A stretch of 33,798 nucleotides of DNA from a virus. Below, piece after piece: positions 1,771-15,539 of this stretch. The notes below the pieces were generated by a model. That model was not told the origin of the DNA. It searched no databases and saw only the letters and a program-made list of their open reading frames with translations. The translations under genes and the position numbers were made by a program. Positions within the stretch are counted from its first letter, which is position 1, and every line of letters starts with the position of its first letter. Where the stretch lies: positions 1-33,798 of IMG/VR virus record IMGVR_UViG_3300025736_000096; one strand, 5' to 3'.

Positions 1771-3288
1771 ATGGATAATATTACTTTAGAAAAAACTTTC
1801 CAGTTTCATGTTCCTATTGATTTAATTAAAGCAGGAGAGGATGAAAATGGAGATTATAAAATTGCTGGTTTAGCTTCGACTGAGCATGAAGATTTGCAAG
1901 GAGAGATTGTTAGAAAAAATGGCCTTGACATTTCTTATTTAAAAGCAGGTCGAGGTCTTTTTAATTTTGATCATCAAAAAGGCCCTCAGAATATTATTGG
2001 GTTAATAGAAGATGCAAAAATAGACAAGGCTGGTCTTAAAGTAGAAGGGTATCTTTTTAGACATCAGCCTTCTGCCCAGGGTTTTGTTAATATTTTAAAA
2101 TCACTTAAAGATAAAGATAAGAATCGTGTTCAGATGTCTATAGAAGGAAAGATAGTAAAAAGAGGAGGAGAAACTGGAAAGACAATTGAGCAAGCTAGAG
2201 TTGAAAAAATTGCTTTAACATTAGATCCTGTTAATCCCCATACTTATGCTAATTTAGCGAAGTCTCTTGTCTCTAATGTAGAGGCTAATCCGTCAGAGGC
2301 CCAAAAAAAATCTGGAAATTATAAAAAAGATCACATTAGTTATAAGGGGCTAGATATCTCTATTGAAAGCCCTAAAGGATCTGTTCGTTCAGGTAAATCT
2401 AGATATGGAGTTGAGTGGAAGACAGAGATGAAACATGATTATGGATATTTCAGAGGAATAAAAGGAAAAGATAAAGATCATCTTGATGTTTTTGTTGGAG
2501 ATAAAGATTCTGACGATATTTTTGTTATAGATCAGGTTGACCCTAAGACAGAGAAGTTTGACGAACATAAAGTAATGTTAGGTTTTGAGTCAGCAAAAGA
2601 GGCCAAAGATGCTTATCATGCTAATTATGAGAAAAATTGGCAAGGGTTCAATGGAATGTCTCAACTGACATTTAATGATTTTAGAGATTGGACAAAAAAG
2701 GGAGTAGTTAAAGATCCCATAAAGAAAGATTTAGAAGAAGCTCAAACTCCAGAACTTGGTGCAGGAGATTTGGGATTGATGGAGTCTCAGTCAAAAGCAG
2801 ATAAAAAACATGCTGATGGAATGAAATTAGAAGGAATTAAGAAAAACGAAGGTAGGAAAATTAAAATTCTTGAACAGGATTTGAGGCATATTCTAAATCA
2901 AATAAATAAATTAATGGTAGAGAAAGATATTAAAAATCTTTCAACAGAAAATTCTACTCTTCAAAATGTTCCTAATCCTCCTAAAATCGAAGTTGATGAA
3001 AATAAATTTAGAAATTTAATGTTTGTTCTTACAGAGTTAATTATTGAGGAATCTACCGAGGTAGATAAGGCTCTTACTGCTGGTACAGGGTATACTGGAT
3101 CCCCAAGCGCAATGTCAGGAGGAGCAGCACTTGGAACAGAATCTTTAGATTTAAAACCTAAAAAAATTAGGAAGAGTTTAGACACAGAAGAGCTTGTCAA
3201 AGAAGCTTTAGAATTTATAAAAGAATACCCTCCTGCCTATGTTAGTGGAGTAATTAGTTCTGTTTGTAAAAAAGATGTTTGCTCATAG
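1771..3288 (+). CDS. Head maturation protease (XkdF-like) fused to an inorganic pyrophosphatase-like domain
   Basis: This is a 505-residue multidomain protein. Residues about 10-165 resemble the phage serine prohead proteases of the XkdF/U35 type: an opening strand pattern with GLASTEHEDLQGE (33-45), a candidate catalytic His68 in FDHQK and a candidate Ser123 in QMSIEGK. Residues about 192-311 match the PPase-like domain of phage polyvalent proteins: ISIESPKGS...RSG, YGYFRG, then D234-K-D236-H-L-D239 in the position of the DGDPxD metal-binding motif of soluble PPases, followed by FDEHKVMLGF and a closing W. Residues about 360-400 are a likely coiled coil. Residues 433-460 repeat the N-terminal arm of the capsid protein encoded next but one. 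It should process the prohead and may itself be packaged and cleaved. The SD is weak: AGG at 1754-1756 is too far and only AAAG is near. No second in-frame start looks better. Confidence 0.8.
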   Translation: MDNITLEKTFQFHVPIDLIKAGEDENGDYKIAGLASTEHEDLQGEIVRKNGLDISYLKAGRGLFNFDHQKGPQNIIGLIEDAKIDKAGLKVEGYLFRHQPSAQGFVNILKSLKDKDKNRVQMSIEGKIVKRGGETGKTIEQARVEKIALTLDPVNPHTYANLAKSLVSNVEANPSEAQKKSGNYKKDHISYKGLDISIESPKGSVRSGKSRYGVEWKTEMKHDYGYFRGIKGKDKDHLDVFVGDKDSDDIFVIDQVDPKTEKFDEHKVMLGFESAKEAKDAYHANYEKNWQGFNGMSQLTFNDFRDWTKKGVVKDPIKKDLEEAQTPELGAGDLGLMESQSKADKKHADGMKLEGIKKNEGRKIKILEQDLRHILNQINKLMVEKDIKNLSTENSTLQNVPNPPKIEVDENKFRNLMFVLTELIIEESTEVDKALTAGTGYTGSPSAMSGGAALGTESLDLKPKKIRKSLDTEELVKEALEFIKEYPPAYVSGVISSVCKKDVCS

Positions 3289-3308
3289 AATAAATTTATG
3301 GGATAATT

Positions 3309-3324
3309 TATTTAAATAATAAAG
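3309..3324 (+). promoter_or_regulatory. Candidate late-promoter-like AT box before the scaffold gene
   Basis: TATTTAAATAATAAAG lies 18 bases before the chosen scaffold start at 3342. Nearly the same string occurs at 15258-15273 before the HTH gene. The box partly overlaps an AT-only inverted repeat (3289-3296 with 3305-3312). It is reminiscent of the single-box TATAAATA late promoters of T4-like phages, but the resemblance is loose and AT-rich background can mimic it. Confidence 0.3.
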
Positions 3325-3328
3325 AAAT

Positions 3329-3344
3329 GGGAGAAACAATTATG
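3329..3344 (+). promoter_or_regulatory. RBS that decides the scaffold start
   Basis: GGGAGA at 3329-3334 overlaps the upstream in-frame ATG (3327) and lies eight bases from ATG 3342, so initiation at 3342 is favoured. Confidence 0.6.
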
Positions 3345-4175
3345 GAAAACGAAGTCCTCAACAAGACAATCGAAAATTTAGTCGATAAGTTCTCCTTAAG
3401 AAAAGCTTCTAAAGTTGAAGAAGAAGAAAAAGAAGTTAAGAAAGCTGAAGCTTTTGAAGGTAAGGAAACTAAGGAAGAAGAAAAGAAGGAAGAAGAAGAA
3501 AAGAAAAAGAAAGTTAAAAAAGCTGAAGGTGAAGAAGAAGACGCTGAAGAAGAGAAAAAAGGTTTTGATGAAGCTGGTGATGTAGATGAAGATAAGAAGA
3601 AGAAAGAGTCACCTACTTCAGCAGATGCTTCTAGCGGTGCAGCAAAAGCTTTTTCTGAAGGTGGAGAGGCAAATGCTGATAAGTACAATAAGCAAGCCCC
3701 AGTTGAAGATCCCAAAGGTTCTGGAGCGGCAGCAATAGACACTTCTAGAGCTAATGGTGGAAAAGATAGAATTGGTAAAAGTTTAAATTTCAATGATATG
3801 AATTCTGTTATTACAGTTTTGAAGGCTCTTCATGAAGAAAATAAAGACCTTCGTAAGTCTCTTGACGGAATGGAAGAGAAATTTGAAAAGATTGCAAGTC
3901 AACCCGCTTCAGTTAGAAAATCAATGTCAGGTCTTACTCCAGTTCTTAGGGGTGGAGAAAACGTTGATGGAGTGACTAGTAATTCAAGAGATTTGAATAA
4001 GTCTAAAGTTATTTCTGCTTTAGATGATCTTCAGAAGTCTGCTACAGATAATACAGTATTCTGGTCTGATTATGTAACTCAGACAGAGATCCATAAAGGA
4101 CCAATAACAGCTGAAACTCCTCCGTTCGCTAATAAAGAGATCTGGGGCAAGGTTTTAGAAAAAATTAATTCTTAA
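3342..4175 (+). CDS. Probable capsid scaffolding (core) protein
   Basis: This 277-residue protein sits between protease and major capsid protein, the usual place of the scaffold. Its first 95 residues are an extremely charged K/E/D tract with little hydrophobic content. A linker rich in A, G and S follows, then a likely helical segment (HEENKDLRKSLDGMEEKFEKI) and a compact C-terminal part ending in a W/K-rich tail. Scaffolds of tailed phages are typically helical and low in complexity, with a C-terminal capsid-binding end, which fits. I chose ATG 3342 rather than in-frame ATG 3327 because GGGAGA (3329-3334) is a good SD eight bases before 3342 but overlaps 3327, which has none. No sequence motif fixes the function; a head-interior protein is the alternative. 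Confidence 0.6.
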   Translation: MENEVLNKTIENLVDKFSLRKASKVEEEEKEVKKAEAFEGKETKEEEKKEEEEKKKKVKKAEGEEEDAEEEKKGFDEAGDVDEDKKKKESPTSADASSGAAKAFSEGGEANADKYNKQAPVEDPKGSGAAAIDTSRANGGKDRIGKSLNFNDMNSVITVLKALHEENKDLRKSLDGMEEKFEKIASQPASVRKSMSGLTPVLRGGENVDGVTSNSRDLNKSKVISALDDLQKSATDNTVFWSDYVTQTEIHKGPITAETPPFANKEIWGKVLEKINS

Positions 4176-4198
4176 GAAACATATAGGAGGAAACCGTT

Positions 4199-5671
4199 AT
4201 GTTAGCTGATTTTTCGAAACTTCAAGATGGATTTGGCTCAGCAACTCCAGAGGAACTGGATGAGTTGAATAAAGCTCTACAAGCAGGATCTGGTTATACT
4301 GGAGCCCCCTCAGCCCTTGCAGGTGGTGGAGCCCTCCAGGTGGAATCGCTAGAAGCAACACTTAAAAGTGTTACTTATGGTAATAAACATTTTGTAACTT
4401 GGGCTAGAACGCCTAAAGACCCAGCACACAACACTGTTGAAGAATACAACAGAGTTATTAGTTATGGAGAACAGCAAAATGGCTTGTTTTTCGATGCTGA
4501 TGCTGGAACAACACCTACTGCTCAGGATTCGAACTATGTTCGTCAAATCCAGATCGTTAGGTATATGGGAACAACGAGAGTTATTTCTCATCCATTAACC
4601 TTGATTCGTCCAGCACATGGACCTATTGTGGCTAGAGAAATTAGAAACGCAGTTACCGAAATTCTTGGTAATTGGGAACGCCAGATTTGGGAAGCTAATG
4701 GAATATTTCAGTCTGCTACAGGAACTTATGTTGGTGCAGCTGGTGATATTTCTACAGGTTCTCTAAAGTTTAATGGTTATGATCAGCAGATTCGTTTTGG
4801 AGATACTGATGCAAATAGCCGTTATACAGGATTTGCTGGTTATGGTTTATCAAATTTAAGTTCAATTGTTAATGCTGGTGATAATCCGATTTCAGAAGAT
4901 ATTCTTGAAGAGTCTTGTCGTATTGCAGCTTCAAATTTTGGTAATTTGACAAATCTGTTTATGACATATAAGACAAATGCTGATTTTTCAAAACAGTTCT
5001 TTCCTAAAGAGCGTATAATGAATATGGGTGTTGCTCAAGGTAGAGCAGGTTTTGTTTTGAATGAATTTATTTCTTCAGCAGGTCCTATTGAATTAGCCCC
5101 AACTCGTTTTATTGATCCTAAATTTGAGCCTTTAACTGGCGCATTAACAAATTCTCCTGCTACTCCAGTAGTTGGTGGAACAGCTTCTGAAATTGATGCT
5201 AACTCTGTCTTAGTTGCAAGTGCTGTTGGTTATTCTTACAGAGTTTCTGCCTTAAATGGCCAAGGTGAATCTATTGCCTGTGCAGCTACAGCCGCTCAAG
5301 TAATAGCATCTGGAAACAGAATTGCTATTACAATTAATGCTGGTACTGTTGGTGCTCAATATTATGCAGCTTATAGAGCTCCAGTCGCGACTCTTTTAAA
5401 CCATCGTTTTATTGGTTTTATCGCAGATAGTACTGGTAATGGTGGTGGAGCAACATTTCGTGATGCAGGTTATCGTCTTGCAGGTAGACAGCAAGCTTAT
5501 CTAATGAGTTATGATGCAGAGAATATTTCTTGGCGTCAGTTGGCTCCATTGATGAAGATGGATCTTGCAATCACAGGTACAGCTTATAGATTTATGTGCA
5601 TGATGTACGGAACTCCAGTAGTTTTTGCACCTAAAAAGCATTGCCTAATTGATAACATTGGTTATTTATAG
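4199..5671 (+). CDS. Major capsid protein
   Basis: This 490-residue protein lies directly downstream of protease and scaffold, with the strongest SD of the window (AGGAGG at 4185-4190), and ends at a strong terminator, as expected for the most abundant virion protein. The N-terminal arm (about 1-56) carries the motif KALxAGxGYTGxPSA...GGxALxxESLE, which in large-phage capsid proteins precedes the folded HK97-type domain. The next part (TYGNKHFVTWARTPK, VEEYNR, GLFFDADAGTTP, MGTTRVISHPLTLI) is typical of myovirus capsid proteins. Residues about 315-430 (VVGGTASEIDANS, YSYRVSALNGQGES, AGAQYYAAYRAP-like) look like an inserted Ig/fibronectin-like loop domain in the capsid fold. Cleavage of the arm by the upstream protease is likely but the site is not determined. 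Confidence 0.9.
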   Translation: MLADFSKLQDGFGSATPEELDELNKALQAGSGYTGAPSALAGGGALQVESLEATLKSVTYGNKHFVTWARTPKDPAHNTVEEYNRVISYGEQQNGLFFDADAGTTPTAQDSNYVRQIQIVRYMGTTRVISHPLTLIRPAHGPIVAREIRNAVTEILGNWERQIWEANGIFQSATGTYVGAAGDISTGSLKFNGYDQQIRFGDTDANSRYTGFAGYGLSNLSSIVNAGDNPISEDILEESCRIAASNFGNLTNLFMTYKTNADFSKQFFPKERIMNMGVAQGRAGFVLNEFISSAGPIELAPTRFIDPKFEPLTGALTNSPATPVVGGTASEIDANSVLVASAVGYSYRVSALNGQGESIACAATAAQVIASGNRIAITINAGTVGAQYYAAYRAPVATLLNHRFIGFIADSTGNGGGATFRDAGYRLAGRQQAYLMSYDAENISWRQLAPLMKMDLAITGTAYRFMCMMYGTPVVFAPKKHCLIDNIGYL

Positions 5672-7225: not shown

Positions 7226-8998
7226 ATGCCTCTTAAACAAGGTTCGTCTGATAAAGTAAAAAAGCCTAAAGAAAGTCTTGAAAATGACTATGAAGAAGCA
7301 AGAGATTTTGATTATGGAACTGAAGATATAAGCTCTGAAATTAGGAGTGAAATTAAAAATAAAGATGATGGTAAGGAAGAGGAAGAAAAGGAAGAGTCAA
7401 ATCAGAATAAAAGTGATGTTTCTAAGACTACAGATAAGATTATTTCTGATTTAGAAAAAGATTTTTCAGGGACTCAAGGTCCTCAAAGAGATGTTAGAAG
7501 GAATCAACAACTTATAGAAAGATACTATGAGTATCTTTCAGAGCAAACTCATAAGATATTTTTAGGAGATAATCATGAAATTTCTCTTAAAAATGGGTTA
7601 AAGTTATTAATATTTAAAGTAGCTAGAGATAGTTTTACTGGAGCGGTATTATCTTATGAGAGAAACGTTCCTTTAGCCACTTTTGAGAATTTAGATCTTT
7701 CTGCTTTGGTTGTAGATATGGCAGACAAAGGTTTTATAACCGAGAGAAGTTTTTATTCTATTTTAGAAGATGGTAATGCTACCTTTGATAATGAAACTCA
7801 TACAGATAATATGGGGAAGGGAGAGAATATGCAAAAAACAGGCCATGTCCCTGGAGGGGACGTTATAGATGGAGTTTATCCTGATCAAAATGTTAGTTGT
7901 CCTGGTGGAAAGATACGTTCAAGAGGCCAGGGACGAGGGCTAGGAGTTGGAGGAGGTAGGGGCCCAATAGGTAGGCAAGCTGATAATCCAAAAAAATATG
8001 ATTCTTTAGAGTCGGAAGATCTTGTCCGAGCTGCTATTGCTAGTTTTGGTAAGGCAGAAGTTTATGAAAAATATTCTTCTTCTGAAAGAAAAACTGTGGC
8101 TAATCAAATAACAAAAGCCGCTAAGAAATTTGGGATTGAAGTCTCTGATGATTGGAAAGAAAGGCATAATATTGTGAAATCTCAAACAGAATTTTTGGAT
8201 AGTTGTTTTGAAGCTCTTGAGAAGGGTGATCTTAATAAAGCAAATGAATTAAGTAAGACATTTATGGGATATGATTCTATAAAGTATACCCCTTCAAATA
8301 GATCTGAAGCTATGGAAGTTGTGATTAAACCTCAACAAGAAGCTTTTGATATGACTTCTGTTGATACTGGGAATCCTATATCTGATGAGAATTATGGGAC
8401 AAATGATTTTGGTCTTACTGAAATTCAAAAAGAAGTCATAAAGATGTTGCAGAAAGATCTTCATGTTGGTGCAAAAGTAGTGGGAATTTACAATGTCTAT
8501 GATGGTAGTTACAATATTTGTTTGTTAGGTTCAGACAACATTGAACATAGATATAATTTGAGCAAAGAAGGAGTTTCTGTAAAGATGGCCTCGAGGAAAG
8601 TTGAAGAGAAGTTTAAAACTAAAGTAGACTTTCCAGGGACAGAAGTTTTTGGGAAAGCTGATCTATCTTTGGGCCAAAGTCTTTTTACTAAAAACTGGAA
8701 TGATAAGTCAGATAAAGAGTCTGTTGAAGATTTTGCTAAGTCTCAGCCAAATTTTGAGTCAGCTTTTGATAAGAGAAAGGATCTTGGAGAGTTGAGAGTT
8801 CATAATAGTGAGTCTCAATTTAATAAGATGACCGATAATCTTAACGGTCTTGACTTTAGTAAGGCTAATGGGATTGGTGGAGGAGCAGGGTCTAGAGGTG
8901 GGAAAGTTGTAGGATATTATTCTGATGGAACTCCTGCTTATGCTTCTCAGCAATATAAACCTCAGACAGCCACTCCTAAAAAAAAACTTCTGAAGTAG
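7226..8998 (+). CDS. Large virion-associated protein of unknown function (frame may continue past its stop)
   Basis: This 590-residue protein has a strong SD (AAGGAG). Residues 1-75 are highly charged and disordered. Residues about 80-190 are mixed helix/strand (RRNQQLIERYYEYLSEQ, then a strand-rich part with SYERNVPLATF). Residues about 225-250 are Gly/Arg-rich. Residues about 258-312 (SEDLVRAAIASF ... ERKTVANQITKAAKKFGIEV) resemble a small helical domain common in phage capsid-region proteins (DUF6582-like, by pattern only). Near the end, GKVVGYYSDGTPAY resembles a short motif often found at the C-termini of phage head proteins. The last codons are CCT AAA AAA AAA CTT CTG AAG TAG; a -1 slip on the nine A's would bypass this stop and add about 112 residues. 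A role in head completion or as an internal or packaging-associated protein is possible but unproven. It is not a portal by any motif I see. Confidence 0.75.
   Translation: MPLKQGSSDKVKKPKESLENDYEEARDFDYGTEDISSEIRSEIKNKDDGKEEEEKEESNQNKSDVSKTTDKIISDLEKDFSGTQGPQRDVRRNQQLIERYYEYLSEQTHKIFLGDNHEISLKNGLKLLIFKVARDSFTGAVLSYERNVPLATFENLDLSALVVDMADKGFITERSFYSILEDGNATFDNETHTDNMGKGENMQKTGHVPGGDVIDGVYPDQNVSCPGGKIRSRGQGRGLGVGGGRGPIGRQADNPKKYDSLESEDLVRAAIASFGKAEVYEKYSSSERKTVANQITKAAKKFGIEVSDDWKERHNIVKSQTEFLDSCFEALEKGDLNKANELSKTFMGYDSIKYTPSNRSEAMEVVIKPQQEAFDMTSVDTGNPISDENYGTNDFGLTEIQKEVIKMLQKDLHVGAKVVGIYNVYDGSYNICLLGSDNIEHRYNLSKEGVSVKMASRKVEEKFKTKVDFPGTEVFGKADLSLGQSLFTKNWNDKSDKESVEDFAKSQPNFESAFDKRKDLGELRVHNSESQFNKMTDNLNGLDFSKANGIGGGAGSRGGKVVGYYSDGTPAYASQQYKPQTATPKKKLLK
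8978..8986 (+). other. Nine-A slippery site at the end of the 590-aa ORF
   Basis: In the zero frame the codons are AAA AAA AAA (8978-8986), preceded by CCT, giving the heptamer A-AAA-AAA at 8980-8986. A -1 slip moves into a frame that has a TAA at 8977-8979, just upstream of the slip, and then stays open to 9321. A stem of 10 pairs (9015-9024 with 9031-9040, including G-U pairs) lies about 28 bases downstream, further than the usual 5-9 base spacing. RNA polymerase slippage on A9 or a sequencing indel would have the same effect. Confidence 0.6.
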
Positions 8999-15284: not shown

Positions 15285-15539
15285 ATGGAAAATAAAATTG
15301 GGATATTTTTAAAAAGAAGAAGAGAAAGTTTAGGAATTTCTCTTAGAGAGTTAGAGAGCAAGATTGGTATATCTGATTCTTATATTTCAATTATAGAAAA
15401 TGGTAAAAAAGATTTTGTTCATCCGAATATCCTTAAGAGATTTTCAAAAATTTTAGATGTTCCATATCTATACTTAATGGAGATGTCTGGATATTTAGAA
15501 AAAAATATAACTTTAAAAGAAAGGGGAAAAGATGTCTGA
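15285..15539 (+). CDS. XRE/Cro-type helix-turn-helix regulator
   Basis: This 84-residue protein has a complete HTH_3-type fold in residues about 5-63: helix 1 IGIFLKRRRESLG, helix 2 SLRELESKIG (19-28), a turn, recognition helix SDSYISIIENGKK (30-42), then helices with PNILKRFSKILDVPYLYLMEMSGY. It should bind DNA as a dimer, but its target is unknown. It has a strong SD (AGGAGGG) and its last eight bases overlap the start of the first tail chaperone, so the two are co-translated. Lying between a terminator and the chaperone/tape-measure genes, it is placed to control this transcription unit. No lysogeny genes are nearby, so a prophage repressor role is not supported. Confidence 0.85.
   Translation: MENKIGIFLKRRRESLGISLRELESKIGISDSYISIIENGKKDFVHPNILKRFSKILDVPYLYLMEMSGYLEKNITLKERGKDV

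Follow-up and report, generated by a model that had tools for sequence, protein, structure and literature searches.

The window analysed here is the whole of a 33.8-kb viral record (33,798 nucleotides), whose head genes are related to those of Herelleviridae. On its plus strand it encodes a head maturation protease of 505 amino acids (1771..3288; phrog_1028). The phrog_1028 head maturation protease profile matched residues 5-158 (E 1.2e-34), covering the catalytic domain, and the catalytic His68 (1972-1974) and Ser123 (2137-2139) were invariant among 39 aligned proteases, as were K433 and L459 near the C-terminus. Pfam Peptidase_S78 (PF04586) gave no match to the window protein at E 0.01, while the relatives SPO1, K and L068 passed. 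The catalytic domain ends at a predicted cut, K164|S165 (2260..2265), where K164 is nearly invariant and most relatives have K-S followed by a hydrophobic residue. An inserted pyrophosphatase (InPase) domain follows (2296..2697; PF18823, residues 176-309, E 1.5e-51), and this match together with phrog_1028 confirmed the name protease/PPase that the protein had been given from its sequence alone. Among solved structures, the only relative found for the InPase domain by sequence is a portal protein, matched at its C-terminal end (9b41), and the domain occurs fused to many other phage proteins. Beyond it lie the copy of the capsid arm (residues 433-460; 3067..3150), which opens with the predicted cut K433|A434, a second predicted cut of the form K[SA]-hydrophobic at K468|S469 (3172..3177), and a short helical C-terminal tail (3175..3285), for which a low-confidence model placed helices at residues 472-485 and 488-498. 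A model of the relative L068 showed the gp21/assemblin fold, with a pLDDT of about 90 in the catalytic part; the arm had a pLDDT below 50 in L068 and around 50 in the window protein. The arm is thus a low-confidence stretch in these single-chain models, and we make no claim of intramolecular docking. PDB searches with the K and SPO1 proteases as queries returned no solved protease tail; only major capsid proteins (MCPs) were matched, through the motif.

Two further head genes follow on the same strand. The first encodes a scaffold-like protein of 282 amino acids (3327..4175), recognised by its position between the protease and the MCP. The second encodes an MCP of the SPO1 gp6.1 type (4199..5671; 490 amino acids; phrog_752, E 4e-65), which matched Gp6.1 in PDB 9vel with E 7.6e-64, is about 31% identical to the MCP of SPO1, and forms a clade of its own together with metagenomic contigs. 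Alignment with the MCP of phi812, of which the deposited mature form begins behind K24, predicted a propeptide of residues 1-25 (4199..4273), and the cut site K25|A26 and the mature N-arm occupy residues 25-52 (4271..4354). Elsewhere in the window, a 590-residue protein with a DUF6582 match (PF20223) and no PHROG match is encoded between the head and tail genes (7226-8998), and an 84-residue protein matching phage transcriptional repressors (phrog_8, phrog_3) lies in the tail gene region (15285-15539).

Residues 433-460 of the protease (KALTAGTGYTGSPSAMSGGAALGTESLD) and residues 25-52 of the MCP (KALQAGSGYTGAPSALAGGGALQVESLE) aligned without gaps, with 19 of 28 identical. The sequence-only reading had proposed this likeness, and it was borne out with correct DNA coordinates, as was its remark that the copies differ at third positions: the two stretches of DNA (3067-3150 and 4271-4354) agreed at 51 of 84 nucleotides, and at 19, 23 and 9 of 28 for codon positions 1, 2 and 3, respectively. 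The N-terminal part of the MCP recovered the protease tail by tblastn within the window (E 6.8e-10). The further claim, that no other protein of the window has a copy, also held: among all six-frame ORFs the runner-up 28-mer shared 8 of 28 residues, and a scan with a motif profile found two places only, in the protease and in the MCP. For the scaffold-like protein, the reported absence was right for the whole motif but not for its first few residues, since K-[SA]-hydrophobic, the predicted cut, was present five times (K107, K151, K166, K177 and K198 in a pattern scan).

The sample in which we followed the motif pair consisted of about 100 head modules, 24 from annotated phages and 80 from IMG/VR. 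The latter were drawn from viral contigs using an alignment of four MCPs as query; a scan of viral contigs for close relatives with the window MCP alone gave no match. At each locus the MCP N-arm was aligned to every other ORF, and the protease was then identified by profile. In most of the 94 protease-bearing SPO1-like loci the best ORF for the MCP arm was the protease, in its C-terminal part, and 51 of 66 representatives (<85% MCP identity) exceeded z of 4 against shuffled arms. Each of the 14 Herelleviridae genome records that were searched whole contained exactly two copies, one in the protease and one in the MCP; in SPO1 these are DKSLEAGYEVDPEKMEGGDVFRKESLD (protease tail) and NKALEAGHTVNPLDLEGGGAFRVESLE (MCP). 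The motif pair is therefore a family-wide feature and not one peculiar to the window: it occurs in SPO1 and K and in phages of Listeria, Enterococcus and Bacillus. The arm was better conserved than the tail beyond it (0.55-0.66 vs 0.37-0.47). A K[SA]-hydrophobic site downstream of the arm was present in 44 of 56 proteases, where 17 were expected, and was absent from the phage K and Listeria-type proteases. Many IMG/VR relatives had a shortened arm only. Unrelated segments in relatives, which the sequence-only reading had named as evidence that would speak against it, were encountered in some lineages, namely the Bacteroides phages SJC03 and DAC19, and so the arm copy is not universal.

In two records, SPO1L1 and SPO1L5, the protease is annotated as a shorter chain. 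SPO1L1 (OQ921336.1, L026:4020-4100) has a run of seven A just behind the arm copy, where SPO1 has six, and owing to the longer run its annotated protease ends right after the arm, with the remaining tail intact in another frame. For SPO1L5 (OQ921340.1, L126:448-1056) the annotation gives a protease that is equally short. The short forms could stem from an error in assembly, from slippage or from a genuine truncation.

The start of the motif very probably coincides with a maturation cut of the form [LIMVF]-x-K|[SA]-hydrophobic. The deposited mature MCP chains of phi812/K (9row, 9rox, 9roz) begin at S25, directly after the K of the motif, a start that could also reflect the depositors' choice instead of N-terminal sequencing. 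N-terminal processing was reportedly described in work on the A511 capsid in 1995. K[SA]-hydrophobic was enriched 5.1-fold in 62 scaffolds (386 occurrences vs 76 expected) and 4.5-fold in protease tails, compared with 0.52-fold in MCP bodies and 1.25- to 1.33-fold in neighbouring ORFs, and two residues ahead of the Lys there was a preference for L, I, M, V or F. The same pattern is found at K433|A434 of the protease and at K25|A26 of the MCP, and P1 is Lys at MCP, protease and scaffold sites alike, so that these sites do not follow the T4 [LI]-x-E signal. The suggestion that one cleavage signal is shared by several head proteins, as in T4, is thus supported, by inference, for the first five or so residues, with the signal being K|[SA] and not [LI]xE|. 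Neither the scaffold sites nor the K164 site behind the catalytic domain are followed by the roughly 23 downstream residues of the arm. As the scaffold sites lack the arm, it should be dispensable for cutting, and something else must keep these residues. This second part of the motif, of about 23-25 residues, is the mature N-arm of the MCP, and cutting alone does not explain it.

The arm copy was found on other carriers as well. The contigs L034, L036 and L039 form a supported clade with the window. Their proteases lack the arm copy, which is borne instead by an adjacent protein of some 950 residues, and in these contigs the carrier and the MCP arm have in common the clade's own GGSVLM wording. 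Arm carriers of this size adjoin the protease at L121:1893-4745, at L122:1675-4602 and in L125 (minus strand, 919 amino acids). In these large carriers the arm copy lies about 200-235 residues from the end, and the two that were tested had no Pfam or PHROG match. In L027, the copy opens a 278-residue DUF5661 protein. Since sister contigs have it on other proteins, the arm copy is not tied to the protease; judged by its distribution it appears to behave as a portable module, and such a change of carriers is easier to reconcile with a tag for docking or retention than with a device that belongs to the protease only.

How the two copies came to be alike was addressed through their codons and through comparison between genomes. 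Where the copies have identical residues, the same codon was used 309 times of 730, with 296 expected, and in the window alone 8 times of 22, with 9.6 expected. As synonymous codons are random between the copies, the likeness must be maintained at the protein level, which upholds what the sequence-only reading had proposed, and the covariation within genomes described below agrees with it. A recent gene conversion was ruled out by the codon test, which gave no synonymous excess. Recurrent transfer of the arm codons from the MCP gene to that of the protease, with no function in common, would account for a within-genome similarity that exceeds the cross-genome one between clades; we nevertheless consider it very improbable, because codon identity is at chance both overall and in the window, the place of the copy is conserved with K and L invariant, and old copies without function would decay. 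For the comparison between genomes we used a four-point test, in which the similarity of cross pairs is subtracted from that of own pairs for genomes a and b (d); independent evolution of the two segments after one old duplication is expected to give d=0. A first result, with all 66 loci, owed part of its size to loci whose copies are weak, and therefore the test was repeated on Herelleviridae picked without regard to the motif. There, d was positive in 51 of 51 pairs with less than 40% MCP identity, and none of 100,000 permutations reached the observed pairing; among named phages it was positive in 109 of 109 pairs under 0.30 MCP identity. The Herelleviridae pairs are mutually non-independent, and disjoint pairs agreed in direction (17 of 17 and 33 of 33). 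An old duplication in which each copy was kept for unrelated reasons, so that the likeness has no joint meaning, is contradicted by these positive values and is the least probable of the accounts considered here. In its favour, close relatives (MCP identity >0.6) show little own-pair excess; as the effect fades among them, the covariation seems to be slow.

Two further explanations concern what the copy does. According to one of them the motif is a cleavage site only, an extended substrate recognition sequence that was copied in the protease tail for self-activation or as a pseudo-substrate delaying the cutting of the MCP, and no docking is involved. The motif begins at the predicted cut with an invariant K433, and C-terminal processing of T4 gp21, phiKZ gp175 and SPN3US gp245 is described in two reports (PMC9026906, PMC10052503); both points agree with such a role. 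The explanation is still an unlikely one, since the downstream residues are missing at the scaffold and K164 sites, the full arm sits on a non-protease protein in the sister lineages, and residues far from the cut covary. The other explanation treats the copy as a portable capsid filler, with free arm peptides occupying arm sites left empty in the shell, such as those near the portal, while it hardly matters which protein is the carrier. It would suit both the predicted cut after the arm, in its excess over expectation, and the different carrier in the sister lineages, but phage K and Listeria-type proteases have no such downstream cut, and we regard it as quite improbable.

The reading that we prefer, and hold with modest confidence, is that the protease cuts its own chain at K433|A434 and that the arm copy docks the protease to the capsid shell. 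Of its two parts, self-cutting at K433|A434, in the way of the MCP at K25|A26, is strongly suggested by the shared sequence pattern, and a docking or assembly mimic is plausibly the best account of the other residues. Head substrates would be cut at [LIMVF]-x-K|[SA]-hydrophobic, the MCP after K25 and the scaffold at several places, and the protease chain itself after K433 and probably also after K164 and K468. Before the cut, the arm copy of the protease would take places of MCP N-arms on the inner wall of the procapsid, so that, as we propose, a limited number of protease molecules would be placed in the shell. Self-cutting at K433 would then free the catalytic part and leave an arm-like fragment; if K468 were cut as well, a free arm peptide of 35 residues would result. 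Predicted cuts behind the arm in most of the proteases examined mean that such a peptide may arise widely, though not in the phage K and Listeria types. Under the same proposal, the covariation comes from a shared constraint, since each copy has to match one and the same surface on one capsid. In this phage and most of its SPO1-like relatives, the capsid-trimming enzyme has a copy of the trimmed arm, which probably gives it a seat in the shell like that of a capsid subunit and a self-release at the same place. Protease peptides were reported in purified virions of Listeria phage CKA15 (29.5% coverage; PMC12282133). As SJC03, DAC19 and the group of L034, L036 and L039 have no arm on the protease, the arm would not be the only way in. 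A broader formulation, possible although we stop somewhat short of calling it probable, is that of a portable capsid tag, in which a covarying second arm copy is placed on the protease or on another head protein, is cut by the same protease, and makes the carrier or its peptide a pseudo-arm.

The SPO1 gp3.2/gp6.1, phage K and A511-type modules have the gene order, the protease and MCP families and the motif pair of the window, and the window protease differs from them by the pyrophosphatase domain that it adds between core and arm copy. In SPN3US, gp245 removes its own 64-residue C-terminal propeptide at a consensus common to the head substrates (PMC10052503); the tail of the window protease after K433 measures 72 residues, and the SPN3US consensus is AxE| in contrast to K|[SA]. 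The catalytic fold resembles that of T4 gp21, as judged from the L068 model (5jbl, Z 11.8, rmsd 2.6, 129 aligned). T4, like the window, has one short consensus across many head proteins, there [LI]xE|; the T4 capsid targeting sequence (CTS), however, is a short propeptide at the N-terminus that precedes the cut, whereas the conserved part in the window follows the cut and is close to the C-terminus of the protease. The C-terminus of T4 gp21 showed no arm copy; a candidate elsewhere in the protein (P 0.012) was rejected, as it falls within the catalytic domain. A T4 review calls the role of protease self-cutting a major gap (PMC9026906). Head proteins that share a short consensus site, and proteases that cut off their own propeptide, have been described before. 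A propeptide in which the arm of the mature MCP recurs, with covariation between the copies and a change of carrier, appears to be new; no description of a segment shared by protease and MCP was found in the parts of the open literature consulted.

The role of prohead protease tails may be targeting, activation or neither, and here the tail bears a recognisable partner sequence. For a large phage family, the arm copy makes unexplained protease tails testable, with a precise hypothesis, defined residues and a predicted cut consensus, and the conserved, covarying pair occurs in tractable phages (SPO1, phage K and the A511 type). Should the arm prove to be a portable tag, it would offer a route for putting chosen proteins inside such heads.

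The sequence FNK103|SL of the HK97 MCP fits the cut pattern of the window, at K103|S104, its established cleavage site. HK97 gp4 also has K-S after its catalytic domain; unlike in the window, the HK97 scaffold is fused to the MCP. A candidate arm copy in gp4 was rejected, its score being within those of shuffled sequences (P 0.13). With the herpesvirus assemblin (UL26) the fold of the protease clan is shared, as suggested by the L068 model (Z 5.8-7.7), and the C-terminus of the herpes protease is common to the scaffold, not to the MCP. A Chryseobacterium phage (L011:3264-4865) and an IMG/VR contig (L106:4377-5927) each encode the protease and a scaffold-like part as a single chain, an arrangement that resembles that of UL26, and in L106 a reduced motif stands between the two parts, in the manner of a release site.
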